Source: Agrobacterium tumefaciens
Lineage (GTDB): Bacteria > Pseudomonadota > Alphaproteobacteria > Rhizobiales > Rhizobiaceae
Assembly: GCA_025560025.1 (NCBI GenBank)
Contig: CP048487.1
Location: 62,001 to 126,000, forward strand
Reading direction: 5' to 3'
Length of the DNA: 64,000 nucleotides
The notes below the pieces were generated by a model. The model worked only from the letters and a program-made list of their open reading frames with translations. It did not search any database and had not been told where the DNA came from. This document shows positions 21,008 through 36,485 of this stretch, piece after piece; the first letter of the stretch is position 1, and the number at the start of each line of letters is the position of its first letter. The translations under genes were made by a program, and so were the position numbers.

Positions 21008-23155
21008 ATGGCACAGGCCAGCCAGAAAATCACGCTCAACGCCGGGCGCGACATTCCCTTCAACAAGCTCGTTCTGAGCCAGCAGAACGTTCGTAAAACC
21101 AAGGCGGGCATCTCGATCGAGGAGCTCGCCGAGGATATCGCCCGTCGCGGACTGCTGACCAGCCTCAATGTCCGCGCTGAAGTCGATGGCGACGGCAACG
21201 AGACGGGCATCTACCGGATCCCGGCGGGCGGTCGCCGTTACCGCGCTCTTGAGTTGCTGGTGAACCAGAAAAAGCTGTCAAAGATGGCGGCCATCCCCTG
21301 CATCGTCAGCAAGGGCGACACACTCGAGGTCGAGGATTCACTTGCCGAAAACGTCAGCCGCATCGATCTGCATCCGCTGGACGAGTTCCGGGCCATCATG
21401 ACCCTTCGCGAGCAGGGCCTGGACGAGGAAGAGATTGCCGCCCGCTTCCATATGTCGGTCGCCACGGTGAAGCAGCGTTTGCGCCTGGCCTCAGTCTCGC
21501 CGCGTCTCCTCGAGGTCTACGCCAACGACGAGATGAAGCTCGGCCAGGTGATGGCGTTCTCCATCACCAATGATCACGTTCGCCAGGAACAGGTTTGGGA
21601 CACGATCTCTCGGTCGCATAACCAGGACGCCTATTATATCCGGCGGATGCTGACCGAAACCGCGGTCCGAGCCTCCGATCGTCGCGCCGTTTATGTCGGT
21701 ATCGACGTCTATGAAGCGGCTGGCGGTGTCGTTATGCGTGACCTGTTCGAGCAGGACAACGGCGGATGGCTGCAGGATCCGGCGCTGCTCGAGCAGCTCG
21801 TGCTCGAAAAGCTGTCCGCTGAGGCCGAAACGCTGAAGGCTGATGAAGGCTGGAAGTGGGTCGAAGCCGCGTTCGACTTTCCCTACGGCCACACCTCGGG
21901 TCTTCGCCGCTTCTACGGCGAGCGGGTCGAGTATAGCGAGGAAGAGCTTGCGCGGCATGACGCGCTGAAGGCGGAATACGACAAGCTCGATGCTGAGTAT
22001 GCCGAGGCGGAGAGCTATTCCGAGGAGACCGAGGCGCGGCTTGAGGAACTCGGCAACGCACTGGATACACTGAACGACCGGCCCTACGTCTTCGACAGCC
22101 AAGACGTCGCCCGCGGCGGTGCCTTTATCTCGCTTGCGGCCAATGGCGAGCCCAGGATCGAACGTGGTTTCGTCCGGCCCGAAGACGAACCTGTGGCAGA
22201 GAACCAAACCGGAGATGCCGATTATGGCGCGAGCGATCGTCAGGGCGAGACTGAAACTGGTACTATTCCCGCGAACGGCGGCATCTCGGTCAACGGCAAG
22301 CCTGTCGGCATCGGGGAACCGGAGGAAGACGACGGAAAGGTTCGTCCGCTTTCCGATCGCGTCATCGAGGATCTAACGGCGGCCCGCACCGTTGCGCTAC
22401 GCAACGCGCTGGCGAACGATCCCGTGATGGCTTTCATCGCCGCCCTGCATGTCACGGTCCTCAAAATCTTCTACCGATACGGAGCGGACTCGTGCCTGGA
22501 GATCACGCTTCAGCACACCGCGTTCAGCCAGACGCAGGGGCTCGGCGATACGATCTGGGCAAAGGAGATCGAACAACGGCAGGAATCCTGGGGTTATGAC
22601 CTTCCCGGCAACGCCGACGAGGTCTGGAACTACCTGATTGCGCTCAACCAGGATAGCCGCATGGCGCTGTTTGCCCATTGCGTCTCCTTGTCGGTGAACA
22701 CCACCGTGCAAGCGTGGAACCGGCGGACAAAGGAAACGGCTCACGCGACGCAGCTTGCCCATTCGCTCGGCTTTGGCATGGTCGCCGCCGGTTGGACGCC
22801 GACGGTCGACAACTATCTCGGCCGTGTCACCAAGGCGCATATCCTGCAGGCGGTCCGCGAAGCGAAGGGCGAGCAGTCGGCGCAACTGATCGATCATCTC
22901 AAAAAACCCGACATGGCGCGCGAGGCTGCCCGGCTGCTCGAAGGCAGCGGATGGCTCCCTGAAGTGCTGCGGCTCCCGGTCGATCAAGTCTCAGGCGAGG
23001 CAGAGGCCGGTGTGACGCTCGTCGACGCGGGTGTCGAGGGCGATACCACTCAGGCCGCCGATTACGATCTTCCGGCCTTCCTGACGGTTGATGAAGAAGC
23101 CGAGGGAACGGCTACCAATTCGATCGACGGTGAGCATCTCGAAGCCGCCGAATAA
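21008..23155 (+). CDS. Large ParB/RepB/Spo0J-family DNA-binding protein
   Basis: The N-terminal 200 residues form a ParB-type CTP-switch and DNA-binding unit: PFNKLVLSQQNVRK, GGRRYRA at 74-80, ENVSRID at 114-120, and the helix-turn-helix EEIAARFHMSVATVKQRLRL. The remaining 500 residues have no named domain and include acidic coiled-coil-like sequence (about 310-350) and a helical C-terminal part. At 715 residues it is twice the size of a partition ParB, and no ParA lies next to it. A role in partition, transcription control or nuclease-like processing of the incoming plasmid is possible. The ATG is preceded by CGGAGAAACGAC. Confidence 0.8.
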   Translation: MAQASQKITLNAGRDIPFNKLVLSQQNVRKTKAGISIEELAEDIARRGLLTSLNVRAEVDGDGNETGIYRIPAGGRRYRALELLVNQKKLSKMAAIPCIVSKGDTLEVEDSLAENVSRIDLHPLDEFRAIMTLREQGLDEEEIAARFHMSVATVKQRLRLASVSPRLLEVYANDEMKLGQVMAFSITNDHVRQEQVWDTISRSHNQDAYYIRRMLTETAVRASDRRAVYVGIDVYEAAGGVVMRDLFEQDNGGWLQDPALLEQLVLEKLSAEAETLKADEGWKWVEAAFDFPYGHTSGLRRFYGERVEYSEEELARHDALKAEYDKLDAEYAEAESYSEETEARLEELGNALDTLNDRPYVFDSQDVARGGAFISLAANGEPRIERGFVRPEDEPVAENQTGDADYGASDRQGETETGTIPANGGISVNGKPVGIGEPEEDDGKVRPLSDRVIEDLTAARTVALRNALANDPVMAFIAALHVTVLKIFYRYGADSCLEITLQHTAFSQTQGLGDTIWAKEIEQRQESWGYDLPGNADEVWNYLIALNQDSRMALFAHCVSLSVNTTVQAWNRRTKETAHATQLAHSLGFGMVAAGWTPTVDNYLGRVTKAHILQAVREAKGEQSAQLIDHLKKPDMAREAARLLEGSGWLPEVLRLPVDQVSGEAEAGVTLVDAGVEGDTTQAADYDLPAFLTVDEEAEGTATNSIDGEHLEAAE

Positions 23156-23180
23156 CGGCCCCCGACTTTCACTCACGAAA

Positions 23181-23200
23181 GCCCGGCCCCTGTGCCGGGC
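23181..23200 (+). repeat. Module leader hairpin 1
   Basis: GCCCGGC (23181-23187) pairs with GCCGGGC (23194-23200) around a six-base loop. It is followed by TTCTCTGTTTCAGGAG and then the ATG at 23224. The hairpin lies 26 bases after the ParB-like stop, so it may end that message while leaving the next ribosome site close behind. The same arrangement recurs before other genes of this module. Confidence 0.6.
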
Positions 23201-23223
23201 TTCTCTGTTTCAGGAGCACCGTC

Positions 23224-23880
23224 ATGCCTGCCTATACGATCGAAACGACCTACACCCTGCCGATATTCCGGCATGGAACCTATATCGCCGACACGCCCGA
23301 GGCTGCCTGCAAGGCGGCCCTTGGCGACGGCAACTGGGAGTCTTCGAAGAAAGACTACGACTCTTCGGGCGAGGTTCATGTCACCGGCATCTGGGAGGGT
23401 GATAACACCGTCTATGCCGGATCGCAGATCACCATACCGTCTCAGTTTGATGAATCCGTTCAGCGCCGGGCTCGCCACTTTGAAATCCTGCTCGGACTGC
23501 TGAAGATGCTGTTCCACGACGTCCAGGCGGCGCGATCTCCGTCAGGCGACTGGCTGGCGAAATCGTCTTGGGCGATAGCGCGGGGCGAGGCTATCCTCGC
23601 CTATGCGCCCGATCCCACCGAGCCGGCCGACGCGCCAATGCCAAGTCATATCCTCGCACGTTTAGAGGAGGAGCGCGTGCGCAGCGCGATAGCTGCAATC
23701 CTCGAGGTCGACCGAGACTTCGATGGGCTTTCGCCGGTTTCCGTGAGCGATGCGGAGATCCGATCAGCTTGTGTGTCCATCATAACCGCAATGGACCTCT
23801 CCGATGCCATAAGCAATGCCGAGTTTCACGCGGCAATGGCAGCAATCCGAGCGGCCTACCGTCGCCTCCATCCAGATTAA
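23224..23880 (+). CDS. Hypothetical protein, 218 residues
   Basis: The N-terminal 80 residues look like a small beta domain (MPAYTIETTYTLPIFRHGTY, then DNTVYAGSQITIPSQFDE). The C-terminal part is helical (FEILLGLLKMLFHDVQAARS, and EEERVRSAIAAILEVDRDFD). Similar proteins occur next to ParB-like and antirestriction genes on rhizobial plasmids, but I know no function. The start is supported by CAGGAG in the leader shared with other genes of the module. Confidence 0.65.
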   Translation: MPAYTIETTYTLPIFRHGTYIADTPEAACKAALGDGNWESSKKDYDSSGEVHVTGIWEGDNTVYAGSQITIPSQFDESVQRRARHFEILLGLLKMLFHDVQAARSPSGDWLAKSSWAIARGEAILAYAPDPTEPADAPMPSHILARLEEERVRSAIAAILEVDRDFDGLSPVSVSDAEIRSACVSIITAMDLSDAISNAEFHAAMAAIRAAYRRLHPD

Positions 23881-24078
23881 GTCCTGTCGGACCCCTCTGA
23901 CTTTCGAATCCTGTCTGCTTTCCGTTCAACCCGGCCCGGCCTCCTTCCTGCTCGTACCAGAAGAGGGGGCGGTTAGGGCCAGCTCAAAAAGGAAGAGTGG
24001 GGCCGAGGGGAGGGGCGAGCCGGGTGGTGGAGAGAGGGTGCCCGGTCACAATCCTGTTTCGTCTCTGGAGAAAGATCG

Positions 24079-24501
24079 ATGTCGTTATCTGAAGTCACGC
24101 CTCAAACTGCTTCCATTGTCCCCGACGAGCGCCGCCTGGAATTCCTGCCTACCCTGTTTGGGCGCTCGCTCCTGATGATCGGCGAGAATGCGGTCTACAG
24201 CCTCATGGAGCAGCTCAGCCCCCTCGATTATGGCGGCGGGTTCTGGAATTTCTACGAGCAAGAGGGCAAGCCGCTGTTCCTTGCTCCGATATCCAAAACG
24301 CGTTTTCGGATCTCCGGGGAAATCACCGGGTTCCTAGGAGAAGTCTCGGCTGAGGCTGCCGGGATTATCGCCACGCTCTTTGCGTTCTCGCATCTCTCCT
24401 TCCAGTATCAATCCGTGCATCTCTCGGAAGGCTACGACCGCCTCTGCGCCTATGCAGCGGACCACACCGAGGCCGCAGAGATCTTTCAGGCGATCGATTG
24501 A
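24079..24501 (+). CDS. ArdB/KlcA-family antirestriction protein
   Basis: The 140-residue product shows the ArdB/KlcA pattern: RRLEFLPTLFGRSLLMIGEN, AVYSLMEQLSPLDYGGGFWN and FYEQEGKPLFLAPIS, and a final helix-loop containing AAGIIATLFAFSHLSFQ. ArdB proteins protect incoming plasmid DNA against type I restriction enzymes by an indirect mechanism without mimicking DNA. It is preceded by a purine-rich leader and TCTGGAGAAAGATCG. The neighbours (ParB-like, DUF932) are its usual companions on mobile elements. Confidence 0.85.
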   Translation: MSLSEVTPQTASIVPDERRLEFLPTLFGRSLLMIGENAVYSLMEQLSPLDYGGGFWNFYEQEGKPLFLAPISKTRFRISGEITGFLGEVSAEAAGIIATLFAFSHLSFQYQSVHLSEGYDRLCAYAADHTEAAEIFQAID

Positions 24502-24600
24502 TCACCAGCCTCTCGTCCCTCCCAGGAGGCACACCTTTCTGTTCCGACGTACTGCGTTGGAAGCCAAGGCTTGCGGTGGCAATTCATCGTCCATCCCACC

Positions 24601-24640
24601 AGCCCGGTTGTCGCAAGAGCGCTCAACCGGGCTTTTGCGT
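24601..24640 (+). terminator. Module leader hairpin 2, terminator-like
   Basis: AGCCCGGTTG (24601-24610) pairs perfectly with CAACCGGGCT (24624-24633) around a 13-base loop and runs into TTTT. The sequence TTTCAGGAGACTTCATC then leads into the ATG at 24657. A ten-pair GC-rich stem plus a T tail is a credible intrinsic terminator placed immediately before the DUF932 gene. Confidence 0.65.
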
Positions 24641-24656
24641 TTCAGGAGACTTCATC

Positions 24657-25847
24657 ATGAAAACCATGATTTCCAATTCGCGACCGGCATCGGCCGGATT
24701 TAGGGTCGATATATCCCGCGGTGAACGCATCGGCCGTGTTTCATCGGAATGGTTTTCGCGTCCCGACGACGAGCGCTATCTGTCGCTTTCCGATCTGCAT
24801 CGCGCGGTCACCGCCCGAACGGAGCGCGCTCGTGTCCGCACAGTCGAGACCGCAGAAATCCGCGTCGAAGCAACCCGCGACAATGCCGAACGCTTGTCCC
24901 TGATCGTTCCCGGCGGGCGGGAGCCGGTGGCGCCGACACACTGGAGCTACGGTCAGCTCTGCAGCCTGGTTGGCGCGCCTGCAAGCTATATGCGTCAGCT
25001 GCCCGCACCGCTGGCGGCGATCAATCTGCAGCACGGGCTCCTCAGTCACAACGCCGAAATGGTGAAGACGCTCGAGATGGACGACGGTCGCGTGGAGTTG
25101 CGTGCGGTCACCGGTCCTGAATACGGGCGCATCTGGGACAGGGATTTGATCGCGGCCATCATGAACATTGCTGGCAATGGGACAGGCGATACGATCTGGA
25201 AGGTTCCCGGTCTGCTCGACTGGTCTACGATGACCCACAATCCTTTCGTCGACATCACGAAGGATACGACGACGTTGTACGCCAGCGATCGCGACGTCTT
25301 CGTCTTTCTTTGCGATGATACGCATCCGATCGAAGCTGGGCGACTGCCGAACGGCGACCCTGATTTGTATTTCCGTGGCTTCTATGCCTGGAACAGCGAG
25401 GTCGGCTCGAAAACGCTTGGGATCGCCAGCTTCTACCTGCGAGCAGTGTGCGCCAATAGGAATCTCTGGGGTGCCGAAAATTTCGAGGAGATTACCATCC
25501 GTCACTCGAAGTTCGCTGCCCAGCGCTTCGCCCACGAAGCCGCCCCGGCGCTGACGAACTTCGCCACCTCCTCGCCCGCACCGTTCATCGCCGGCATACG
25601 CGCCGCCCGTGAACGCATCGTCGCCCGAAACGAGGAGGATCGCTCCGAGTTCCTGCGCAAGCGTGGCTTCTCAAAGGCCGAAACCGGCAAGATCATCGAC
25701 ACCGTTCTTTCCGAGGAAGGGAGACCGCCGGAGTCGATTTTCGACTTTGTGCAGGGCATCACCGCCCTTGCGCGGGGAAAGTCGCATCAGGACAGCCGGC
25801 TGGAACTTGAGGGCAAGGCGAAGAGACTGCTGGAAAGCGCTGCCTGA
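24657..25847 (+). CDS. DUF932 domain protein
   Basis: From the ATG at 24657 (CAGGAGAC upstream) the product is 396 residues. It carries the phage/plasmid-like DUF932 domain: LVGAPASYMRQLPAPLAAIN, LRAVTGPEYGRIWDRDLIAA, YASDRDVFVFLCDDTHPIEA, and FYLRAVCANRNLWGAENFEE. Members are frequent on plasmids and phages beside antirestriction and recombination genes, with unknown biochemistry. An upstream in-frame start at 24498 would read through the terminator-like hairpin and is rejected. Confidence 0.85.
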   Translation: MKTMISNSRPASAGFRVDISRGERIGRVSSEWFSRPDDERYLSLSDLHRAVTARTERARVRTVETAEIRVEATRDNAERLSLIVPGGREPVAPTHWSYGQLCSLVGAPASYMRQLPAPLAAINLQHGLLSHNAEMVKTLEMDDGRVELRAVTGPEYGRIWDRDLIAAIMNIAGNGTGDTIWKVPGLLDWSTMTHNPFVDITKDTTTLYASDRDVFVFLCDDTHPIEAGRLPNGDPDLYFRGFYAWNSEVGSKTLGIASFYLRAVCANRNLWGAENFEEITIRHSKFAAQRFAHEAAPALTNFATSSPAPFIAGIRAARERIVARNEEDRSEFLRKRGFSKAETGKIIDTVLSEEGRPPESIFDFVQGITALARGKSHQDSRLELEGKAKRLLESAA

Positions 25848-25887
25848 CGACGTCCCTGCCAGCCATCCTCATCCATCGCTTTCATCG

Positions 25888-25905
25888 CCCGGCCACCACG
25901 CCGGG
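25888..25905 (+). repeat. Module leader hairpin 3
   Basis: CCCGGC (25888-25893) pairs with GCCGGG (25900-25905) around CACCAC. It is followed by a T-rich stretch and GGAAAGGAAACATC before the ATG at 25934. The position, stem sequence and distance to the next start match the other leader hairpins of the module. Confidence 0.5.
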
Positions 25906-25933
25906 TTCTTCCCGTTCCCGGAAAGGAAACATC

Positions 25934-26932
25934 ATGACCACACTTGAAACCAGGATCTACAGCCATCCGCCCCTTCCGCTGGCAGACATCAGCCCGCTCG
26001 AAATGCTGATCCTCACCAATGTGCTCGAGTGCAGCGAAACCGAAGAGGGTCTTGTCCTGTTCACGGATGTCGGACCGACCAATCCGATCCGTGTGAGGCG
26101 CGGCGAGCTGGTCGCCGCGTTTGGCGCCTCAGCGCGAAACGCCGGGGATCCGGTCAACGTCTTCATCGCCGACCGTATCCTCGCCCTTCAGCCGGCAGGG
26201 GGCAACACGGTCGAAGACGATGTGATGATCGACATCGATCTAAGCCACTTCCCGTGGCAGTTTGTGGTGCAGGGCATCGTCGCGCGATCACCGGATCTGC
26301 ACGAGGTCGCCGTGATCCAGTGGACGAACCACCCCTCGCACCGTCCGGACAGTTTTGGCGCCGGCGTTTCGCTGATCACCGCGAAGGCCGTCCATCACGC
26401 CACAAGCGAAGATATTCTCGGCCGGTTCAGACTTCAGGACAAGGCCATCCCAGTTGCCACATCGGCGGTTCCTTCTTGTCGGGACAACAATGCTCCGGCC
26501 GGTAGCGCTGCAAGCGATGTATTCAAGGTAAAGGAGATCGAGACGGCTCTTTGCCTCTGGGAGGCGATGCTTTATTTCCGCGGTCTGCATCAGGATGAAC
26601 GGCCGGTCCCGGACACCATCGCCCGCATGTCGGAGCTCTGGAGTGCCGTCGGATGGCAGGAGATGCGGTCCCATGTCCGCGAGATCGTACCCCTCGCACT
26701 TGCCGTCTATGACGACGTCTGCGAAGAGTTTGAGGAAGAGGGGTTCACCTTCGATTTCGATTTCGCGCCGGCATTGGTCGAGACCCTCTGCTGGGCCGAG
26801 GACGCGGCGTCCCGCGAAGGCGAACCGGGAGAGCTCCGTGAAGAGGTGATGGCAGCCGTCAGGCGCCATCGACAGGATGTCGTCGCGCGATATAGGCCGA
26901 GCTCCGCTGCCTCCTGCCACGTCGACCGTTGA
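25934..26932 (+). CDS. Hypothetical protein, 332 residues
   Basis: The product is acidic and soluble. The first half contains LPLADISPLEMLILTNVLEC and FTDVGPTNPIRVRRGELVAA. After residue 195 it becomes helical (VFKVKEIETALCLWEAMLYF), ending in a Glu-rich region and VMAAVRRHRQDVVARYRPSS. No recognised domain. It sits in the order usual for this module, between DUF932 and the inverted DUF1173 gene, and ends 37 bases from the latter's stop. Confidence 0.65.
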   Translation: MTTLETRIYSHPPLPLADISPLEMLILTNVLECSETEEGLVLFTDVGPTNPIRVRRGELVAAFGASARNAGDPVNVFIADRILALQPAGGNTVEDDVMIDIDLSHFPWQFVVQGIVARSPDLHEVAVIQWTNHPSHRPDSFGAGVSLITAKAVHHATSEDILGRFRLQDKAIPVATSAVPSCRDNNAPAGSAASDVFKVKEIETALCLWEAMLYFRGLHQDERPVPDTIARMSELWSAVGWQEMRSHVREIVPLALAVYDDVCEEFEEEGFTFDFDFAPALVETLCWAEDAASREGEPGELREEVMAAVRRHRQDVVARYRPSSAASCHVDR

Positions 26933-26969
26933 GGAAAGGCGTTGGCGGCCGAGCCGCAGCGTCCGCGGA

Positions 26970-28160
26970 TCACGGAAGCCGCGGGATTTCGCCCTCCGCA
27001 ACCCGCCAGACCCAGGGCGTGATCTCCGGCCTCGTCTCGATCATCTCCGCAAGCGCCTGTTCATAATCCTCTCCGGCGCTCGGCGGAACGATGAACATGG
27101 CGACGGGAGCCGGTTTCTGCTCCGGCAGTGTCACCGACACAATGGGCGCATCGCGTGGCAGGTTGAACCGCAAGCCTTTGACACTCTTTCGCTTGAGGTG
27201 ACCGAGCTTCTCCAGAAGCCGCAGCTCGTGGGTATCCTCGAAGGGCAGCCAGTGCTCGTTGACCACCATCAGCGATACCTCTTCGACCGCCGCAATGCCG
27301 GCGGCCGAGACGCCGAAGGTGGCGATGACGATCAGATGGAATGCCTCGTTCGAGCGCCACAGTTCAAGCTCGACCTCATGACGCGCGGCGAGCCGCCGCC
27401 ATGCGCCGTCCTCGATCATCAGCGGAAAAGGCATGTGCCGTATGCCGATCCTCTGCCCCTCACGCGCGGGAGTAAACTCCTTCACTTCCGCTACGATCAT
27501 CATCAGCTTGCGTGGACCCAAGCCGGTCGCCTGCACGCCCTTGAGCACCGCTGCACGCCGGGCGGCGATCTCATCCTTGTCTTCGGCATGAAACACTTCC
27601 GGCACGAAGAGCATGTCGGCCAACGTCGTGCCTCTGGCTGTCATCTGGGCGGCCGCGTTCAGAAGGCTTGTTCGCACCCGGCCCCAGCCGCGTCTGCCGG
27701 CCCAGGTCGAACGCCATTCCGTCAGTTCGCCCGCCTCCCAGAGATAATGCAGCATTGCCCGCAACGACAATTTCTTTGGTTCGCTGCGAATGCCGTGTTC
27801 GGAAGCTTCGCTTACCGCACCGGGTGCCGCGCGAGGCCCGCGCTTCGTCAGCGAGAAATCCAGTTTCAGGTCGGCCTTGCCGTTCGCATCGATCTGGATC
27901 GCGTTGCCAATCAGCGGCCCCAGGCCGGATAGCTCGTAAGGAGGCTCATAGGAGGGGCATGCGGAATCATGATCGCGTCCCGATAGCGGCATTCGCTTGA
28001 TGACATACAGCTCATCGACTTTCGCGATGTACATCGGCACGGACGGTTCCTTGCACATGCACATCGGGCGGAGCCGATGCTCGTAGGCCTGCGGAAGGAA
28101 TATTCGCAATTCAGGCGACGACTCTTCCATCACCCGACCATCGATTGTGAATGTTCGCAC
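26970..28160 (-). CDS. DUF1173 family protein with a Cys-x-Cys/His-x3-Cys cluster
   Basis: The 396-residue protein belongs to the DUF1173 family of rhizobial plasmids. Near the N-terminus, CMC (Cys34, Cys36) and HDSAC (His64, Cys68) could bind a metal ion in a small zinc-ribbon-like fold (ICKEP-like strand then VDELYVIKRMPLSGRDHDSA). The rest contains RSTWAGRRGWGRVRTSLLNA and a C-terminal domain with LEEVSLMVVNEHWLPFEDTH-like strands. Function unknown. It is the only gene of the module on the minus strand, so it has its own promoter, probably at the dyad near 28207. Confidence 0.75.
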   Translation of the reverse strand: MRTFTIDGRVMEESSPELRIFLPQAYEHRLRPMCMCKEPSVPMYIAKVDELYVIKRMPLSGRDHDSACPSYEPPYELSGLGPLIGNAIQIDANGKADLKLDFSLTKRGPRAAPGAVSEASEHGIRSEPKKLSLRAMLHYLWEAGELTEWRSTWAGRRGWGRVRTSLLNAAAQMTARGTTLADMLFVPEVFHAEDKDEIAARRAAVLKGVQATGLGPRKLMMIVAEVKEFTPAREGQRIGIRHMPFPLMIEDGAWRRLAARHEVELELWRSNEAFHLIVIATFGVSAAGIAAVEEVSLMVVNEHWLPFEDTHELRLLEKLGHLKRKSVKGLRFNLPRDAPIVSVTLPEQKPAPVAMFIVPPSAGEDYEQALAEMIETRPEITPWVWRVAEGEIPRLP

Positions 28161-28206
28161 CTATGCTCTCCCGTTCGGTCCTCGAAGCTACGCGACTACG
28201 ACATAT

Positions 28207-28411: not shown

Positions 28412-28726
28412 ATGACAATACCCAACCATGCCAGGACCAATTTCGACACCCTGTTGCGCGCAGCCGCAGACGGTAACCTCGTCCTGATGGAATGCCTGGA
28501 CTGCCGGACGAGCGAACCTCGTTATGTCCTGTGCGCTGTCGGTCACGACGGGACAGACCGGGTGTTCACACCGTTTGGGCATCTTGCCGACGGCGACCCC
28601 TACGACGCTTATTTGCCGCCCGATCCTGATAATCCTCAAGGCTTTCTGACGCCGGGTCAGGATCTATCCGACAGCCGCTCGCCGGCGGTTGACGACAGGG
28701 GAGAGAGCAATGCGGATCAGGCGTAA
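28412..28726 (+). CDS. Small hypothetical protein, DUF6117-like
   Basis: The 104-residue product begins MTIPNHARTNFDTLLRAAAD and continues NLVLMECLDCRTSEPRYVLC, a pattern I associate with a small plasmid family (DUF6117-like) found next to DUF932 and methyltransferase-helicase genes. The C-terminal third is acidic and Pro-rich (PDPDNPQGFLTPGQDL). The ATG at 28412 has CAGGAGGATAAA just upstream. The 3' end overlaps the next gene by 17 bases. Confidence 0.6.
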   Translation: MTIPNHARTNFDTLLRAAADGNLVLMECLDCRTSEPRYVLCAVGHDGTDRVFTPFGHLADGDPYDAYLPPDPDNPQGFLTPGQDLSDSRSPAVDDRGESNADQA

Positions 28727-29117
28727 GCCCCGGCCCGGCGAACAGCCGCACTACCTCGCTCACTCCCTCTACGCGGCAGAGCTCGGGGCGCCCGACCCCG
28801 GCCATTATCGTTCGACGCCTACCGGTGCGCCGGATGTCGCTGCACTCGTCCATCCCGGCACGGTGATCCGCACGTCGTACGGTACGGGCGGAACGGTGAT
28901 CGGGGTTGAAGGCCCCTATGTCCATCTTGCATCCGACGGCAGAGAGCATCCGCATTTCACGATCGTCTACGTGCCGTCCGAACGGTTCGGTCGGCACAGC
29001 AAGCTCGATCACAACTGGATCAACGAATGCGTTGCTGTTGACGGCCGGATCCTGAAGCTTCTCGAAGTCAACCTCGATGAGGTCTTTATCGAAGGCGCGG
29101 TCTCCGGCCGGCGCTGA
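28710..29117 (+). CDS. Hypothetical protein, 135 residues
   Basis: The start at 28710 follows GGGAGAGAG. The protein has a basic N-terminus (MRIRRKPRPGEQPHYLAHSL) and a central beta-rich part (VHPGTVIRTSYGTGGTVIGV, HLASDGREHPHFTIVYVP) that looks like a small barrel, then a C-terminal KLLEVNLDEVFI. No family name is known to me. Overlap with the preceding gene indicates coupled translation. Confidence 0.6.
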   Translation: MRIRRKPRPGEQPHYLAHSLYAAELGAPDPGHYRSTPTGAPDVAALVHPGTVIRTSYGTGGTVIGVEGPYVHLASDGREHPHFTIVYVPSERFGRHSKLDHNWINECVAVDGRILKLLEVNLDEVFIEGAVSGRR

Positions 29118-29156
29118 CGCTCCGGGGAGACCCCCACCAATCTTTCTTCCAACCAG

Positions 29157-29182: not shown

Positions 29183-29206
29183 TTTCGGCATTTTCAGGAG
29201 AGCATC

Positions 29207-29531
29207 ATGACCAGGCCTGTACTCGACTGCCCCAGCCCGGCTTCTGCACCGGCCGCACCGGTGTTTCTCAATCACCGGTCCCAGGCCGTTCGGCCCGTCT
29301 GCTTCGCCATCGTTTATTGGGACGGGCCCGGGCGATACCCTCTACGTCTTCGAGGACCGCGACGCCTTCGAGCGTCAACGCGCCACGGCCGAGAGACATT
29401 TCGTCCATGTCCATGAGCTGTCTGCCGAGGAAGCGGCCGGTTGGATCGCGGCCGGCGGCAACGCCGTCCTGCACGCCGTGTCGGTCGCCGGTGTTGCGGC
29501 ATTCGAAAATCTGAAGCTTGCGCCCGGCTGA
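29207..29531 (+). pseudogene. Frameshifted small gene of the module
   Basis: From the ATG at 29207 the product reads MTRPVLDCPSPASAPAAPVF and continues to VCFAIVYWDGPG. The coherent continuation, DTLYVFEDRDAFERQRATAE then HFVHVHELSAEEAAGWIAAG and FENLKLAPG (stop 29529-29531), is in another frame. The switch falls at GGGCCCGGG (about 29324-29332), and the total length is one base more than a multiple of three. A single inserted G explains it. Intact, the protein would have about 107 residues; its family is unknown. Confidence 0.6.
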
Positions 29532-29652
29532 AGGCGGGGCGCCTGTCGCATCGAGCGCCTGGAGGGAGAGAGGGGCCGGAAAAGGGCGGTCTGCCGGGGC
29601 TTGGAGAGCGTCCGGGCGGGCCAGTCCTTTCCCGCTCTCGACAGGGTTACCC

Positions 29653-32600
29653 ATGAACATCGTTCCCTCCCGCGCCACAAGCTCGACCGGCGCCTCACTC
29701 GCAACCGCCCATCACACCAGCCGAGCATGCAAACTCGTTCAGGCTGGCGACGCGCTTCTGCCATCTCTCGAGGGCGGCCGGTCCATCGGCGCAGTCGATC
29801 TTCGCACTGTTCTGACGGACATCTTCGGCGGTTCGGATGCAGAAGGCTTCTGGTCATGGAAAGACGCCTACGAGGCGACCGAAGTGGCGCAGGTCCTGTT
29901 TCTGCGCAAGTTCGGCGCGGCGATCACCGCCCGCGCAAATGCACCGCAGGCAACGCTGGCAATGCTGGCCAGGGTGGCGGGTTTGAGCCCGACCCATACG
30001 CGGCGCTCCGAGGAAAGCCAGCGACTCCAGCAATTTTCGACGCCGGTACCATTGGCTTATATCGCCGCCCGTGCCGCCGGCATCGTGGCGGATGATACCG
30101 TGCTCGAACCCTCCGCCGGGACCGGGCTGATGGCGATCTTCGCCGAACTCGCGCATGCGCGCCTGTCTCTCAACGAATATGCGCCCCTCCGCCACGGTCT
30201 TCTGCAACTGCTCTTTCCCGGGTCGGCCGTGGCGCAGCATGATGCCGCCCACATCGATGACTATCTCGATCGCTCCATCCGGCCCACCGTCGTCTTGATG
30301 AACCCGCCGTTTTCCGCCGGCGTTCATGTCGAAGGCCGAATCGCAGACGCCGCGTGGCGTCACCTCGCCTCCGCCTTCGCACGACTTACCCCCGGCGGAC
30401 GACTGGTTGCGATCACCGGCTCAAGCCTCTCTCCCGACAATCTGACATGGCGCGACGCCTTCGTCCGCCTGCAGGAGCGTGGCACGGTTTCGTTCAGCGC
30501 CGCAATCGATGGCTCCGTATATGCCCGGCACGGCACGACGATGGAGACCCGCCTGACCGTGATCGACAAGATCGCTGCCGCCGATCCGATGAGCCTCGTC
30601 GCCTCCCACGGCATCGCCCCAGATCTTGAGACCCTGCTGACGTGGACTTCCAGCCTGCAGCCTCGCTCGCCGTTGTCCGCGTCAAACTCGATCGGCGCTC
30701 CGTTGAACGGAACGGCCAGCGCCAGCGCGGCGAAGATGGCCGCCCGAAACACATCTACCCTGCGGCCCGCTAGCGCATCGGCAACAATCGGGCGTCCTCT
30801 CTCCGCTACTCGCGCGCCGCGCCCTGTTTCCGCACTGTCCCCACGCGTCGATGATGCCGTGGTCGAACTTTCCTACGAACTCTGCGATGCGGCAGTGATG
30901 ACTCGCTGCGACGGCACTGAGGGCATCTACGAGCCTTATCGGCTGCAGGCGATCCGCATTCCGGACGCAAAACCGCATCCGGACAAGCTCGTCGAATCTG
31001 TCGCCATGGCATCGGTCGCGCCGCCCAAGCCGAGCTATCGCCCGCACCTGCCGAAGCGCGTCATCACCAGCGGCGACCTTTCAGACGCCCAGCTTGAAAG
31101 CGTGATCTATGCCGGGGAGGCCCATTCGGGTTACCTCGCCGGTCACTGGTCCGTCGACACCAGTTTCGACAACCTCAAAGCCGTCAAACCGGAGGATGAG
31201 GGCTCTGTCCGATTTCGCCGGGGCTGGTTTTTGGGTGATGGCACAGGTGCAGGCAAAGGTCGGCAGGCTGCCGGTATCATCCTTGATAACTGGCTCAAGG
31301 GTCGTCGCCGCCATCTGTGGATTTCCAAATCCGAGACACTGATCGAGGACGCCCAGCGCGACTGGGCAGCACTCGGCCAGGAGAAGCTGCTGGTCACGCC
31401 GTTGTCACGCTTCCGCCAGGGCAAACCGATCAAGCTCGATGAAGGCATCCTGTTCGCGACGTTCGCGACGTTGCGCACGGATGAACGCGAGGGGAAGCGA
31501 TCGCGTGTCCAGCAAATCGTCGATTGGCTCGGTCAAGAGGCGGTCAGCGGCGAAGCCGCGACAGGAAACGCAAAAGGTTTCGATGGCGTCATCGTCTTTG
31601 ACGAGGGGCATTCGATGGCCAATGCCGCCGGCGGAAAGTCCGAGCGCGGCGACAAGGCAGCCTCACAACAGGGCCGTGCCGGTCTGCGCCTGCAGCGTGC
31701 TCTCCCGGATGCCCGTGTCGTCTATGTCTCGGCGACCGGCGCGTCCGAGGTCGAATCGCTGGGGTATGCTGAACGGCTTGGCCTTTGGGGCGGCACGAAT
31801 TTCCCCTTCTCGACGCGATCGGAGTTCATTGCCGCGATCGAGGACGGTGGCGTTGCGACCATGGAAGTGCTTGCCCGTGATCTCAAGGCAATGGGCCTCT
31901 ACGCCTCGCGCTCCCTGTCCTTCGAGGGTGTGGAATATGACATCCTTGAACACGAGCTGACCGAGGAACAGGTTCGCATCTACGATTCCTACGCCGAAGC
32001 GTTCCAGGTCATTCACAACAATCTGAACGCGGCGCTTGAAGCCTCCGGTATCAGCAGCAGCAAGGGAACGCTCAACAAAAACGCCAAAGCCGCCGCCCGC
32101 TCCGCCTTCGAAAGCTCGAAGCAGCGCTTCTTCAGTCACCTGTTGACGTCCATGAAGACGCCGGCGTTGATCGACGCGACGACCAGGGACCTGGCGGAGC
32201 GGCATGCAGCGATCGTCCAGATCATTTCGACTGGCCAATCCCTGACCGAACGCCGGCTCGCGGAAATACCGACGGAGGAGTGGGGCGACATCCAGGTCGA
32301 TGTCACGCCGCGCGAGATCGTTGCGGAATATCTGAACCATTCCTTCCCAACCCAGCTCTTCGAGGAATATTCCGACACCGAGGGCAATCTCCTGTCGCGG
32401 CCAGTCTATGACCTCGACGGCAACCCTGTTCTGTGCCGCGAAGCCGTCGCCCGCCGCGACGCGTTGCTCGAACGGCTCGGCAGCCTGCCGGCCATCCCGA
32501 CCGCCCTCGACCAGATCGTTCAGCACTTCGGCACAGATCGCGTTGCTGAGATCACCGGTCGCACGCGCCGCATCGTCCGCCGCGATGACGGCGGCACGAT

Positions 32601-34125
32601 CGACCGCTTCGCCGTCGAAAGCCGGCCGGGCAGCGCCAATCTCGATGAGACCCGCGCCTTCATGGACGACGAGAAGCCGATCCTGATTTTCTCGGAAGCC
32701 GGCGGCACGGGACGGTCTTATCATGCCGACCTCGGTGCAAAAAACCAGCGCCTGCGCCTGCACAATCTTCTCGAAGCAGGCTGGCGGGCGGACGTGGCGA
32801 TCCAGGGTCTCGGCCGAAGCCATCGCACCAATCAGGCGCAGCCTCCACGTTTCCGCATGATCGCCACCAACGTCAAGGCCGAGCGTCGCTTCCTGTCGAC
32901 CATCGCCCGACGTCTCGATACGCTCGGCGCCATCACCCGCGGCCAGCGCCAGACGGGCGGGCAGGGCATGTTTCGTTCGGAGGATAATCTTGAATCCCAA
33001 TATGCCCGCGATGCGCTGCGGCAGTTTTACAAGCTGATCCACAGCGGCGGGGTCGCCGGTTGTTCGCTCGAAAAATTCGAGACGATCACCGGGCTTTCGC
33101 TCAGCGCGGAAGAGGGGGGTCTGAAGGACGAGCTGCCGCCGATCCATACCTTCCTCAACCGCATGCTGGCGCTGACGATCGAAATGCAGAACCTGTTGTT
33201 TGATGCTTTCGAGCAATTGCTGGCCGCCCGCATCGAGGGCGCAATCGCGGCCGGCGTCTATGACAAGGGCCTCGAGACGCTGGTCGCGGATCGCATGACG
33301 GTGAAGGAAAGGCGACTGGTTTACACTCATCCGGTGACCGGTGCTCAGTCGCATCTATTGACCATCGAACGCATGGATCGCAATCAGCCGATGCAGATTG
33401 CCGACGCCCTGAGGCTTGTTCAGCGCGACCCACGGGCAAAGCTGATGATCAACGGCAAGTCCGGCCGCGCTGCCGTGCAAATCCCGACGCGTTCGATCAT
33501 GCTCGACGATGGCTCGGTCCAGCCGCGCGTGGCGCTCATCCGGCCGATGGACGAAATCCGTTTCGAGCTGCGCCAGCTCGAGGAAACCAACTGGGAAGAA
33601 GTGGACGAGCAGGGCTTTTCCGCTGCCTGGAGCTCAGAAGTCGCCGATCTCCCCGAGTTTTCGGTTTCGACCATGCATGTGGTCTCCGGCCTCCTGCTGC
33701 CGATCTGGAAATTGCTGCCGCAGGATTATTGCCGCGTCTATCGGCTCGAGACCGACGAGGGCGAGCGGATCGTCGGCCGCCTGATCTCTTCGGAAGGGCT
33801 TTCCCGGCTTTGCCGGAATTTCGGGCTCGATCGGACAGAAGTCGTCAGCGCCGCGCAGGTGTGGGAATCGCTGCTCGGCGGTTCCGCGGTCGTCGCGCTC
33901 GCGGGCAATATGACGCTGCGGCGCGTTCGGGTGATGAACGATTATCGCATCGAGCTTGCCGGCTTCACCGACGGGATGCGCGACAGGCTGAGATCGATCG
34001 GCCTTTTTTCCGAGATGATTGCCTGGAAGGTTCGCTTCTTCATTCCCGTCTCGAATGACGGACAGGCCGTGCTGTCGCGCCTCATCGAACTGCATCGTAT
34101 CATCGATGTCGCCGGGCGGGGCTGA
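29653..34125 (+). CDS. Adenine-specific methyltransferase fused to a Strawberry-notch-type helicase
   Basis: The 1490-residue protein begins with an N6-adenine methyltransferase-like domain: LEPSAGTGLMAIFAELAHAR (SAM loop, Glu152 onward) and NPPF at 217-220. A Strawberry-notch helicase follows, with Walker A GDGTGAGKG (Lys535), DEGH box at 650-653 and the motif VI-like GLGRSHRTNQ at about 1052. The C-terminal 300 residues have no named fold. Such fusions are common on plasmids and phages of alphaproteobacteria, where they could modify and remodel incoming DNA. I set the start at ATG 29653; an earlier in-frame start at 29518 overlaps the frameshifted gene. Confidence 0.88.
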   Translation: MNIVPSRATSSTGASLATAHHTSRACKLVQAGDALLPSLEGGRSIGAVDLRTVLTDIFGGSDAEGFWSWKDAYEATEVAQVLFLRKFGAAITARANAPQATLAMLARVAGLSPTHTRRSEESQRLQQFSTPVPLAYIAARAAGIVADDTVLEPSAGTGLMAIFAELAHARLSLNEYAPLRHGLLQLLFPGSAVAQHDAAHIDDYLDRSIRPTVVLMNPPFSAGVHVEGRIADAAWRHLASAFARLTPGGRLVAITGSSLSPDNLTWRDAFVRLQERGTVSFSAAIDGSVYARHGTTMETRLTVIDKIAAADPMSLVASHGIAPDLETLLTWTSSLQPRSPLSASNSIGAPLNGTASASAAKMAARNTSTLRPASASATIGRPLSATRAPRPVSALSPRVDDAVVELSYELCDAAVMTRCDGTEGIYEPYRLQAIRIPDAKPHPDKLVESVAMASVAPPKPSYRPHLPKRVITSGDLSDAQLESVIYAGEAHSGYLAGHWSVDTSFDNLKAVKPEDEGSVRFRRGWFLGDGTGAGKGRQAAGIILDNWLKGRRRHLWISKSETLIEDAQRDWAALGQEKLLVTPLSRFRQGKPIKLDEGILFATFATLRTDEREGKRSRVQQIVDWLGQEAVSGEAATGNAKGFDGVIVFDEGHSMANAAGGKSERGDKAASQQGRAGLRLQRALPDARVVYVSATGASEVESLGYAERLGLWGGTNFPFSTRSEFIAAIEDGGVATMEVLARDLKAMGLYASRSLSFEGVEYDILEHELTEEQVRIYDSYAEAFQVIHNNLNAALEASGISSSKGTLNKNAKAAARSAFESSKQRFFSHLLTSMKTPALIDATTRDLAERHAAIVQIISTGQSLTERRLAEIPTEEWGDIQVDVTPREIVAEYLNHSFPTQLFEEYSDTEGNLLSRPVYDLDGNPVLCREAVARRDALLERLGSLPAIPTALDQIVQHFGTDRVAEITGRTRRIVRRDDGGTIDRFAVESRPGSANLDETRAFMDDEKPILIFSEAGGTGRSYHADLGAKNQRLRLHNLLEAGWRADVAIQGLGRSHRTNQAQPPRFRMIATNVKAERRFLSTIARRLDTLGAITRGQRQTGGQGMFRSEDNLESQYARDALRQFYKLIHSGGVAGCSLEKFETITGLSLSAEEGGLKDELPPIHTFLNRMLALTIEMQNLLFDAFEQLLAARIEGAIAAGVYDKGLETLVADRMTVKERRLVYTHPVTGAQSHLLTIERMDRNQPMQIADALRLVQRDPRAKLMINGKSGRAAVQIPTRSIMLDDGSVQPRVALIRPMDEIRFELRQLEETNWEEVDEQGFSAAWSSEVADLPEFSVSTMHVVSGLLLPIWKLLPQDYCRVYRLETDEGERIVGRLISSEGLSRLCRNFGLDRTEVVSAAQVWESLLGGSAVVALAGNMTLRRVRVMNDYRIELAGFTDGMRDRLRSIGLFSEMIAWKVRFFIPVSNDGQAVLSRLIELHRIIDVAGRG

Positions 34126-34130
34126 CTGCC

Positions 34131-35166
34131 ATGTTGTCAGCTTCCGAACTTTCAGAACGTCTGGCGCGCGATGCCGAGGCGGTCTGCCGCCATTACCTCT
34201 CTGCCGGCCGCCGGGCCGGCAATTACTGGGTCGTCGGCGACGTCGCCAACAGCAAGGGAAAGTCTCTCTACGTTCATCTCACGGGCCCGCGGGCGGGGCG
34301 GTGGGCAGATGCGGCGACCGCTCAATATGGCGACCTGCTCGACCTCGTGCGGGTGACCTGCGGACTGATCGACTTTCGCGATGTTGCAGACGAGGCCCGG
34401 CGTTTCCTCAACGAACCGCGGGTCAGCCCTGTCTCTTCCTGCGGGGATGACAGGCTCGAGCCAGCCGGTTGAAAGACCGGCCGCGGAACGTGCAAGACGC
34501 CTGTTCCAAATGACGCAGCCGCTCGCTGGCACTCTGGCCGACAGCTATCTGCGTCAACGCGGCATCCTGCGCGCATCTCTGCATTCCTCGCTCCGGTTCC
34601 ACCCGTCCTGCTACTATCGCGATCTCGTCAGCGGCGGAACCCGCAGTTATCCTGCGCTGATCGCAGCGGTGACCGACCAGGCGGGCACGGTTACGGGCGT
34701 GCATCGCACCTGGCTCGATCCTGACGGCGACGGCAAAGCAAGGGTCGAGGATCCCCGCCGCGCGCTGGGCGGGTTGCTCGGCAACGCCGTGCGGTTCCGC
34801 TTTCCCGTTGACGGCCCCGTCCCGGTCATGGGGGCAGGCGAGGGGCTTGAAAGCATGTTGTCGCTCTCGCATGTGATGCCCGGCATGCCTGTGGTCTCGG
34901 CGCTGACGGCCAATCACCTCGCCGCCTTTCGGCCGCCAGCCGGGTGTCTGCGTCTTTACGTAGCCGCCGACGCGGATGCCGCCGGCCGGAATGGGATCGA
35001 GGGACTGAGCCGCCGAGTGCAGGCGCTCGGTATCCTGCCGCTTGTGCTCACACCGGATCTCGGCGACTTCAACGAGGATCTGCGCCGGCTTGGACCGGAC
35101 CGGCTCATCGCAAATCTCCGAGGCCAACTCGCACCGGAAGACGTCAGGCTCATTCTGCCCTCGTAG
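34131..35166 (+). pseudogene. Toprim-domain protein split by a +1 frameshift
   Basis: The first frame (34131-34472) gives the N-terminal part: LSERLARDAEAVCRHYLSAG, NYWVVGDVANSKGKSLYVHL and LVRVTCGLIDFRDVADEARR. The second frame (to 35166) gives RARRLFQMTQPLAGTLADSY and a toprim domain with PVMGAGEGLESML (Glu) and LYVAADADAAGRNG (Asp pair). Homologues of this plasmid family are single proteins of about 345 residues, and 1036 bases is one more than needed. The switch lies between about 34425 and 34470, near GGGG at 34441. If repaired, it would be a primase/topoisomerase-like protein acting with the helicase gene five bases upstream. Confidence 0.7.
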
Positions 35167-35543
35167 TGCGGCCGAGAAGGGGACACAGGAGTGGGGCCTG
35201 GGCGTGGCTGGCAGCGCCGGTCCTGTCGGTCTCTGTCCTGGTGGCGCGCCTACGGGCCTGCCGAGAGGCGACCCTTACCAGGCGGCTGTCAGGCCTTCAG
35301 CGGGTCGGTCAGGTTTCTTCCCCGCGCCGGCTTTTTTAATCCGCATCGGCTGTTCCGAAAGCCGGTTCCCGGTTTCGGACCGATGCGGCAGCCGGCGCTC
35401 CTCGCGGCCCAAGAAACCCTCCCTCAACCGCCCGGCGCTGCGCTGGGCCGCTTCGCTGCGCTCGCGGTTCCGGCCTTCCCGCCGCCTGGACAGGGATCGC
35501 CGTCAGGCCGCGAGAGGCGCGGCCCAAACTGACGGAGACGATC
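35167..35543. other. Intergenic region with a long palindrome
   Basis: No gene was found. At 35341-35388 the outer arms CCGCATCGG and CCGATGCGG and inner arms TCCGAAA (35354-35360) and TTTCGGA (35373-35379) make a 16-pair stem with one four-base bulge. A TTTTTTAAT run lies just before it. The rest is GC-rich with short imperfect repeats (GCTGCGCTGGGC; CGCTGCGCTCGC). It could be a single-strand promoter or initiation hairpin, or a terminator acting leftward; nothing in the sequence decides this. Confidence 0.5.
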
Positions 35544-36485
35544 ATGAACCTTACCCTTCCCATCGACGACACCTTCGAACCCGACCACGCGTCTTCCCCG
35601 ACCGACCGTGTCATCTACGAGATGCAAGTCTATGGCTACCGCCCCTTCCAGGACGAGCCCGACCCGCGCCCGCTACCGGAGGAGCCAATGGTCCAGTCGG
35701 CGCTGACCGCGATGTTCTCAGCGATGTTCGAGATGCTCGGCGACACGCGGCTGGAGCCTGATCTCGAAGACCTTCTCTGGTCGACGGTCAATCTCTTCCA
35801 CCGCGCCGGCGAGCGTATCCAGCGCGAACTTCAGCGCAATGAGGACGCCCAGCGCACCGGCCAGCGCGAGCAGGACGGCTCTGAGGTAAAAAGCGTCGAG
35901 CTTGAGCGCCATGTCGCCGAGGGCATCACGCTTCTCGAACGCCGCAACGCCTTCGAGTTCATGCGCGACTATGCAGCTGATCTCTTCGAGGCGCAGACCG
36001 GTTCCGCATGGCGGCCGCGCACCGGTTCCAAGGTCAACCACGCCAATATGACCGCGGCGATGATCGATAGCAGAGATTTCCTGTCTGCCCGCCGGCACGC
36101 CGAAAACACCGTGCTGATCCCGGCCGGAACCAAGATCGCCTTCGGCGGCGGTATGGACTACAACGATCACGACCGGATCTGGGCCGCCCTCGACAAAGTC
36201 CATGCCAAGCACGCGGAAATGATCCTGCTGCACGGCGGCTCGCCGAAAGGCGCCGAGCGTATCGCCGCGTGCTGGGCCGATGCCCGCAAGGTCACCCAGA
36301 TCGCCTTTAAGCCCGATTGGAACAAGCACGCCAAGGCCGCCCCGTTTCGCCGTAACGACGACATGCTATCGGTCATGCCATCGGGCGTCATCGTCTTCCC
36401 CGGTTCCGGCATTACCGACAACCTGCGCGATAAGGCCCGTCGGCTCGGCATCAATGTCTGGGAACTCAAAGGAGATGGCGCGTGA
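35544..36485 (+). CDS. DUF2493 (SLOG-type) protein
   Basis: The 313-residue product has a helical N-terminal half (VQSALTAMFSAMFEMLGDTR) and, from about residue 190, a DUF2493 Rossmann-like domain: TKIAFGGGMDYNDHDRIWAA, EMILLHGGSPKGAERIAACW, TQIAFKPDWNKHAKAAPFRR and GVIVFPGSGITDNLRDKARR. This YspA/SLOG group is thought to bind nucleotides or nucleotide-derived ligands. It is a usual end-piece of the ParB-like/antirestriction module. The start has ACGGAGACGATC upstream. Confidence 0.85.
   Translation: MNLTLPIDDTFEPDHASSPTDRVIYEMQVYGYRPFQDEPDPRPLPEEPMVQSALTAMFSAMFEMLGDTRLEPDLEDLLWSTVNLFHRAGERIQRELQRNEDAQRTGQREQDGSEVKSVELERHVAEGITLLERRNAFEFMRDYAADLFEAQTGSAWRPRTGSKVNHANMTAAMIDSRDFLSARRHAENTVLIPAGTKIAFGGGMDYNDHDRIWAALDKVHAKHAEMILLHGGSPKGAERIAACWADARKVTQIAFKPDWNKHAKAAPFRRNDDMLSVMPSGVIVFPGSGITDNLRDKARRLGINVWELKGDGA

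Follow-up and report, generated by a model that had tools for sequence, protein, structure and literature searches.

A block of genes in plasmid pAt of Agrobacterium tumefaciens 186 (NZ_CP042276.1, 386,412 bp) was analysed within a stretch of 64 kb (positions 62001-126000 of the plasmid, hereafter the window; coordinates below count from its first letter). Probably (with a probability of about three in four) the block is a module for establishment, located on the leading side, which belongs to a family of conjugative plasmids and integrated elements of Alphaproteobacteria and has a regulon marked by RNA leaders, its biochemical steps and their timing being proposed from sequence. This reading builds on (i) the protein domains of the block, (ii) its gene order and strand, (iii) its position relative to the origin of transfer (oriT) and the relaxase gene, and (iv) the RNA structure of a leader in front of the gene for a ParB-like protein (leader 1), all established by sequence comparison, and less firmly on the structure of a second leader type (leader 2) in front of a methyltransferase (MTase)-helicase gene. 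The plasmid is accessory by its record name and was typed as MOBQ/MPF_T; strain 186 originated from walnut with crown gall (PMC5690329; published work is cited throughout by PubMed Central number). In pAt the block is flanked by a virB-type type IV secretion system on one side and by traG-traD-traC, oriT and traA on the other.

The gene neighbourhood was compared in two samples, which overlap and consist of related genomes. Sample 1 comprised 80 loci picked by their MTase-helicase (the best 80 of at least 591 relatives), many of which are cut by contig ends. Sample 2 comprised 121 genomes from 109 genera of the taxonomic family of the window (presumably Rhizobiaceae) chosen independently of the block genes; the matches used were 69 of 88 for DUF7146 (primase), 75 of 87 for ParB and 47 of 50 for AAA_34 (MTase-helicase; second pieces of split genes excluded).

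In sample 1 the ParB-like protein was found in 63 loci, the N-terminal part of the primase in 78, its toprim part in 74 and the SLOG protein in 68. Cargo was counted by tblastn with the window proteins, so that divergent cargo is undercounted, and amounted to DUF932 in 29, DUF6117 in 23, DUF1173 in 16 and ArdB in 9 of the loci. Sample 2 contained AAA_34 in 35, YAcAr (SLOG) in 45, DUF7146 in 54 and ParB in 52 genomes. Within 15 kb of the 47 MTase-helicase places SLOG was present 44 times and DUF7146 46 times, always downstream and on the same strand. Among the best 50 ParB places (E-value at most 2.2e-152) 39 had MTase-helicase, primase and SLOG, nine had primase and SLOG only, one lacked SLOG and one had the MTase-helicase only; primase and SLOG thus lay downstream on the same strand in 48 and the MTase-helicase was present in 41, with no exception of order or strand among the partners found. 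The next 25 ParB places form another group, 19 of them without any partner. An earlier note on this DNA had staked its proposal on the genes travelling together, and they do, with order and strand fixed in both samples. The same note had regarded the module as built around the MTase-helicase, which does not hold: since nine of the 50 modules are without it (one of these with a gene remnant), ParB-primase-SLOG forms the backbone, with the MTase-helicase as a common, dispensable insert. In five loci that lack the insert (L085, L087, L088, L089, L092) the primase starts within about 120 nt of ParB, and L084 has retained ArdB, DUF932 and DUF1173 in its absence. In L091 (4911-5454, minus strand) leader 2 stands before a truncated start of 39 codons, and 192 bp of the MTase-helicase C-terminus remain, an arrangement which looks like a deletion scar. 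Where the insert is present its distance to the primase gene was -4 to 15 nt in all loci compared except L020 and L027.

The position of the module relative to oriT and the relaxase was determined in both samples. The orientation of the oriT core relative to the block was the same in all seven other loci with the exact 18-mer (L004 and L018 being near-identical). For the relaxase comparison 50 of the 80 loci of sample 1 (50 genomes) were used, with 72 of 80 AAA_34 matches kept after removal of weak and partial ones, and 39 genomes of sample 2, with three partial PF03389 matches left out; PF03389 and PF03432 matches were further left out if they lay on contigs without a module, in G045:C4 (more than 70 kb upstream of the module) or, in one case in G050:C1, megabases away. 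A relaxase (PF03389 or PF03432) was present within 50 kb of 36 of the 72 MTase-helicase places in sample 1, and in 35 of these 36 cases (12 MobA_MobL, 23 Relaxase) it lay downstream and on the same strand, the exception being 49 kb upstream. In sample 2 a relaxase was found within 50 kb of 28 of 51 core modules, six of which are without MTase-helicase, and all 28 lay downstream on the same strand. Because the samples overlap and the genomes are related no p-value is claimed for this position. The nicked strand is, by analogy with pTiC58 and RSF1010, presumably the minus strand, so that the region to the left of oriT would enter the recipient first. By this analogy the block belongs to the leading side, with the relaxase beyond oriT; the relaxase counts themselves do not depend on the analogy.

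Relaxases are typically located in the lagging region, and leading-region anti-defence genes, MTases and toxin-antitoxin genes are oriented for reading from the transferred strand (T-strand) (PMC11541004). The kinds of leading-region genes found in pAt are ArdB, the MTase and the RES-Xre and VapC pairs, and the genes readable from the T-strand are those for ArdB, the MTase-helicase, ParB, the primase, SLOG and VapC, but not those for DUF1173 and the RES-Xre pair. The reading of the block as a plasmid-establishment or counter-defence module was in part supported by its position and orientation, which are those of a leading-region establishment island, and is modified in that the MTase-helicase is not its centre.

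Leader 1 directly precedes the ParB start codon. A nested inverted repeat was strongly conserved at this place in six aligned upstream regions, and the leader was found in all 66 loci that have ParB together with 160 bp or more of upstream sequence. These loci, two of which (the window and L082) belong to a single record, yield 63 different sequences and range from Rhizobium to Bradyrhizobium and Acetobacteraceae. In an alignment of the 63 sequences 17 pairs were defined, 95.7% of 1067 cells were paired, and 12 of the 17 pairs showed changes on both sides; none of 500 shuffles attained any of five measures. Versions slid along the alignment were 37-51% paired, a comparison in which the structure has an advantage as it was derived from the same alignment of related sequences. 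The hairpin closes 9 nt upstream of the start codon, and the GG of the GGAG Shine-Dalgarno sequence takes part in its two outermost pairs. As the base of the hairpin includes part of the Shine-Dalgarno sequence, control of translation would be its likeliest role.

A covariance model of leader 1 (R1; 63 training rows including the window, which match by construction) scored 80.8 bits at the ParB gene of the window, itself a training row; E-values of this model and of the leader 2 model (R2) are rough. Across 91 sources (1.88 Mb, a few of them duplicated) R1 gave 104 matches at E-values of at most 0.05. The genes behind these were ParB (67), ArdC (21), DUF932 (6, including one assigned from a short match alone), a family of 182-187 aa (4), MTase-helicase (1), GcrA (1) and four others. 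ArdC, an antirestriction protein acting on the recipient side (PMC7213743), was assigned by Pfam (ArdcN, MPTase) in three of the 21 cases and by similarity in the remainder. A model-free alignment and folding of 31 of the 37 non-ParB leaders gave the same hairpin, with 538 of 556 letter pairs standard (31-43% in slid versions) and both-side changes in 7 of 18 pairs; these leaders are outside the training set and were found with R1, and so are not independent of it. The 182-187 aa family preceded by leader 1 occurs in L064, L066, L068 and L073, and three members scanned had no confident Pfam match. In L055 copies of leader 1 at 2859-2953 and 3421-3513 (plus strand) stand before a GcrA-family gene and before a 296-aa protein without Pfam match.

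The second leader, that of the MTase-helicase, consists of a purine box and a long hairpin with GAGAGAG near its tip and GCTCTC at its 3' side, and has a predicted folding energy of -51.4 kcal/mol in the window, which is outside the 31 training rows of R2. In the alignment of these 31 sequences 95.1% of 589 cells were paired, compared with 47-60% in slid versions and 94.2% in shuffles, and covariation was weak (both-side changes in 3 of 19 pairs). Given so few both-side changes the structure is less firmly supported than that of leader 1, and a 59-sequence alignment yielded no clear consensus structure. R2 gave 87 matches, namely MTase-helicase (65, of which 34 outside the training loci, with a few duplicates), ArdB (5), ParB (3), DUF932 (1) and other open reading frames (13). 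The leader was present before 62 of 79 MTase-helicase genes and missing from 17, mostly of Rhizobium and relatives. In L044 (174-278 and 6236-6344) and L067 (8202-8308), all on the plus strand, it precedes similar 123-aa proteins, which are a candidate establishment gene.

The two leader types may be related, as common motifs and weak cross-matches suggest. When 31 kb of the window were searched on both strands without filtering, R2 ranked the starts of the MTase-helicase and ArdB (E-values in Table 1) before that of ParB (0.081), with the next match at 0.89; R1 ranked ParB before ArdB and the MTase-helicase (0.1, ending 5 nt before the start), with the next match at 0.54. Elsewhere R1 matched one MTase-helicase start (E-value 0.009) and R2 three ParB starts and one DUF932 start (0.008-0.05). 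In Novosphingobium pNL1, which is in neither model, R2 matches with E-values of at most 1 ended at the starts of ParB (4e-4) and the MTase-helicase (0.77), and R1 found neither start. Neither model had a match below an E-value of 0.1 in one Sulfitobacter (roseobacter) and one Nostoc (cyanobacterial) plasmid region, and the leaders are thus not everywhere tied to the MTase-helicase.

The leaders were compared with Rfam and rejected as members of a known RNA family. Rfam 15 gave no match to the ParB hairpin (gathering score or E-value of at most 10), two whole loci had no match at an E-value of at most 1, and the leader of the MTase-helicase received miRNA and sRNA scores only, far below threshold. 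The only gathering match in the window is a ROSE RNA thermometer at 6035-6126 on the plus strand (RF00435, 65.3 bits, gathering score 45).

From these observations a course of establishment may be proposed. After nicking, the minus strand would enter the recipient 5' end first, and traCDG and then the block would arrive ahead of most of the plasmid. Transcription of the block would run toward oriT with the T-strand as template. The ParB-like protein would be loaded onto the incoming DNA, the DnaG-like primase would prime the complementary strand, and the SLOG protein might handle single-stranded DNA or a nucleotide ligand, a DprA-like role being one option. The MTase-helicase would track along the new duplex and methylate adenine, and ArdB would block type I restriction. 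ParB-primase-SLOG would form the minimal backbone, with the MTase-helicase and ArdB, ArdC, DUF932, DUF6117 and DUF1173 as frequent exchangeable cargo, and the hairpin leaders in the mRNAs of ParB, ArdC/ArdB, DUF932 and the MTase-helicase would coordinate expression of the separate units. More tentatively, and at odds clearly below even, both leader types could belong to a single, hitherto undescribed cis-acting RNA class by which the establishment regulon of alphaproteobacterial conjugative elements is defined. Such RNAs would gate translation of the early genes (ParB, ArdC, ArdB, DUF932, MTase-helicase and several unknowns) in response to a shared signal of newly entered DNA, with antirestriction proteins produced during the first minutes in the recipient and no longer.

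Single-strand DNA promoters of the Frpo type, which fold on the T-strand, serve leading-region genes in F-type plasmids (PMC11541004, PMC8406263), and an inverted repeat can form a hairpin on either strand. That the hairpins are such promoters would agree with minus-strand DNA still folding better than its shuffles (mean z -2.2 in 32 sequences); in the same sequences the mean z was -3.6 for plus-strand DNA and -4.2 for plus-strand RNA, and consensus folding was also better on the plus strand. Read on the plus strand, G.U pairs far exceeded A.C pairs, both in the 32 sequences (193 cells to 16) and in the 31 non-ParB leaders (99 to 9). A DNA-binding palindrome would be expected to be free of this bias, and a T-strand hairpin to have the opposite one, which points to a fold of the mRNA; the hairpin moreover ends 9 nt from the start codon. 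Leader 1 is hence best read as an mRNA leader, and a role as T-strand promoter has only a slim chance. No Frpo-type promoter was recognised when the minus strand of eight intergenic pieces was folded; the piece 20540-20689 reached z -3.10 and was not conserved in the six aligned regions, and no search with known Frpo sequences was made.

That the block serves vegetative maintenance, with the ParB-like protein partitioning the plasmid, the primase acting in ordinary replication and the antirestriction genes as passengers, is suggested by the matches of the ParB-like protein to ParB, Noc and KorB and by the many homologues annotated as partition proteins. We regard this as unlikely in view of the fixed place upstream of the relaxase (35/36 and 28/28, in overlapping samples), the enterobacterial ParB homologue situated among ssb, psiB and psiA, and the leaders common to ParB, ArdC, ArdB and DUF932. 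Conjugative backbones are often kept as blocks, and the cluster might be a backbone merely not rearranged whose members have unrelated jobs; this is very unlikely, as ParB, primase and SLOG hold their order and strand although the surrounding cargo varies, and as the spacing of MTase-helicase and primase is so tight outside L020 and L027. A plasmid-borne anti-phage defence system formed by the MTase-helicase and its neighbours would agree with the MTase-helicase pairs known in restriction-modification systems (PMC5512222) and with the match of the PADLOC model mads_2 to the MTase part (E-value 1e-8). However, the other nine proteins scanned matched no PADLOC model at an E-value of at most 0.01, no nuclease family was found among the block proteins scanned, and the company is ArdB and ArdC, which makes a defence system highly improbable.

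Several points weigh against the establishment module itself. The strand of nicking is assigned by analogy with pTi and RSF1010. A looser oriT pattern occurred in eight further loci without TraA match and in both orientations, and was taken as chance. In 36 of 72 and 23 of 51 places no relaxase lay within 50 kb and hence no orientation could be compared, and one relaxase, 78 kb away, is encoded on the other strand. The block is not adjacent to oriT (distance 8 to 23.5 kb). The T-strand could not serve as template for DUF1173, the RES-Xre pair, HU or traCDG, which lie on the opposite strand, and neither an SSB nor a psiB gene is annotated in the part of the record that was read, the public gene table of which is incomplete. 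As the primase gene of pAt is broken, the full pathway may not run here. Finally, when the F-like parB2 was deleted, no change in the transfer of pED208 was detectable at the mating times examined (PMC8406263).

The features of the block and its surroundings are listed in Table 1.

Table 1. Coordinates of the block, its leaders and the neighbouring transfer genes in the window.
Feature	Position	Strand	Basis or remark
Leader 1 of ParB	20920..21013	+	purine box; nested hairpin ~20949-20998; GGAG Shine-Dalgarno 20997-21000; start codon 21008
ParB-like protein, 715 aa	21008..23155	+	HTH_ParB above cut-off, ParB_N just below; PHROG 7783 across residues 16-683
218-aa protein without assignment	23224..23880	+	no family match; homologue in 23/80 loci
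Weak leader of ArdB	23979..24084	+	reaches start codon 24079; R2 19.5 bits, E 0.001; R1 13.5 bits, E 0.081
ArdB/KlcA antirestriction protein	24079..24501	+	PF03230, E 7e-34
DUF932 protein	24657..25847	+	record annotation; PF06067 below cut-off; PHROG 1362, E 2e-43
332-aa protein without assignment	25934..26932	+	annotated CDS; no family above cut-off
DUF1173 protein	26970..28160	-	PF06666, E 1e-163
DUF6117 protein	28412..28726	+	PF19612, E 2.5e-45; annotation
135-aa protein without assignment	28710..29117	+	annotation; no family match
Leader 2 of MTase-helicase	29552..29658	+	reaches start codon 29653; R2 53.9 bits, E 5e-14
MTase-Strawberry notch helicase, 1490 aa	29653..34125	+	gamma-class adenine MTase, then SF2 translocase; start as annotated
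DnaG-like primase, 5' part	34131..34472	+	zinc-domain fold without cysteines
DnaG-like primase, 3' part	34381..35166	+	DUF7146 and Toprim_3; frame different from 5' part
SLOG (YAcAr/DUF2493) protein	35544..36485	+	E 2e-29; helical N-terminal part of ~190 residues
RES / Xre-MbcA toxin-antitoxin pair	36925..37955	-	PF08808, PF09722; between block and oriT
Phd-type antitoxin and PIN (VapC) toxin	38185..38882	+	antitoxin model below cut-off; annotation; between block and oriT
traG, traD, traC	41917..44343	-	profile matches, annotation
oriT core GGGCGCAATATACGTCGC	44515..44532	+	between traC and traA; exact 18-mer in seven other loci
TraA relaxase-helicase (MobA/MobL)	44568..49196	+	lagging side

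The protein assignments of the earlier note were largely upheld: the 715-residue ParB-like protein was recovered by its HTH_ParB and PHROG 7783 matches, and ArdB/KlcA, the fusion of an MTase with a Strawberry-notch helicase (AAA_34, E-value 2e-117; Helicase_C_4, 2e-98) and the DUF2493 SLOG protein by the respective Pfam families. The DUF932 protein bears that name in the public record, and its Pfam score (18.3 bits, cut-off 23) falls short. DUF1173 is present as claimed, on the minus strand, and the block is consequently not co-directional throughout; the DUF6117 protein had been missed, as had the two toxin-antitoxin pairs and the RNA leaders before three genes.

Conserved residues were examined in four protein alignments (A1-A4, of 26, 22, 20 and 20 chosen sequences). 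The ParB-like protein has ParB_N and helix-turn-helix (HTH) domains with GxRR and ENxxRxxLxP motifs, which we take to be those of ParB partition proteins. One enterobacterial homologue is the ParB of an ssb-parB-psiB-psiA cluster, which in L096 lies between ssb and psiB/psiA and near ArdA. In the MTase-helicase the motifs TP, EPSAG(T)G, NPPF, Walker A, DExH and QGLGR were invariant or nearly so in 20 aligned sequences, T130-P131 and N217-P-P-F220 being invariant, and a sequence search of the PDB returned no match. A Strawberry-notch MTase-helicase 49% identical to it is encoded on a Nostoc plasmid (L093, 9932-14227, plus strand), with no primase or SLOG gene annotated within 10 kb. For the SLOG protein the PDB sequence search gave unrelated matches only, all above an E-value of 0.1, and fold-match scores were tied among MoCo carrier (13.6), DprA (13.4), TM1055 (12.9) and ShosA (12.8), followed by LOG (11.9). 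Beyond oriT, TraA has C-terminal matches to the BID domain (PF17841, E-value 3e-16), which is named for Bartonella effectors. A nucleotidyltransferase-HEPN protein near traA (51481-52395, plus strand) is a possible toxin or defence gene, and a LuxR-type regulator, an autoinducer synthase and a second LuxR (54067-56475, minus strand) make up a quorum-sensing set on pAt.

What had been described as a small unknown and a toprim protein are one primase gene whose frame is broken in pAt; the toprim match itself is real. Both parts form a single open frame in 73 of 74 relatives having them. A break peculiar to the window was rejected, since 17 further near-identical records share its bases (18 of 18 plasmid records at least 99% identical, the window's own included). 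The putative catalytic residues E238 (Toprim Glu), D281/D283 (DxD) and D313/N315 (DaN-acid motif) were invariant in 26 relatives. The protein has a DnaG-like fold, zinc-binding cysteines were not found in it, and its PDB sequence search gave unrelated matches only, all above an E-value of 0.1.

Several described systems resemble parts of the module. Leading-region anti-defence islands (PMC11541004) likewise lie on the leading side of oriT with an antirestriction gene, an MTase and toxin-antitoxin genes, mostly readable from the T-strand; the pAt block differs by its ParB-(MTase-helicase)-primase-SLOG core, its RNA leaders and the absence of a recognised single-strand DNA promoter, and the main text of that paper contains none of the terms 'Agrobacterium', 'rhizobi' and 'Alphaproteobacteria'. 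The F-like ssb-parB2-psiB-psiA region (PMC8406263) has a homologous leading-region ParB-like protein with antirestriction neighbours, whereas in pAt no ssb or psi gene is annotated and MTase-helicase, primase and SLOG follow ParB. DarB of phage P1, a methylase-helicase dyad (PMC5512222), also joins a gamma-class adenine MTase (TP, NPPF) to a C-terminal SF2 translocase, but the latter is of the SNF2-rel_dom family in DarB and Strawberry-notch (AAA_34/Helicase_C_4) here, and the helicase parts do not align. Orthology with DarB was rejected, as only the MTase part aligns, and weakly (E-value 0.0026, probability 11.5%); a tblastn search of 50,697 phage records matched two, P1 not among them. The toprim primases TraC1 and SogL (PMC5512222) share the DnaG-like fold, DxD and DaN-acid motif, whereas the present primase is stand-alone, has a zinc-domain fold without cysteines and is broken in pAt.

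The leaders resemble EGeRS1 of the pLS20 plasmids (PMC8708921), related structured sequences directly upstream of several establishment genes including ardC. EGeRS1 sequences are about 300-600 nt long and occur in Bacillus, the transferred strand is the non-template strand, and the authors leave undecided whether they act as RNA or single-stranded DNA; the leaders described here, in contrast, have a hairpin of about 50 nt, occur in alphaproteobacterial elements and are assigned to the mRNA strand by covariation. Among the matches listed in the open-licence PubMed Central literature no description of the leaders or of the gene set was found. The idea of an establishment regulon marked by structured upstream sequences is thus known from pLS20, and for the present RNA element a separate class may be warranted.

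The searchable literature says little about the ways in which conjugative plasmids and integrated elements of Alphaproteobacteria escape restriction when they arrive. The fixed ParB-primase-SLOG backbone with its common MTase-helicase insert offers a defined, deletable target. The RNA leaders carry more weight than the backbone, as they provide a sequence tag for finding more establishment genes, as upstream sequences led to further such genes in pLS20 and p576 (PMC8708921). Several leader-bearing families of unknown function become candidates for antidefence proteins, and with the leaders one can ask if the timing of early expression following transfer can be set post-transcriptionally.

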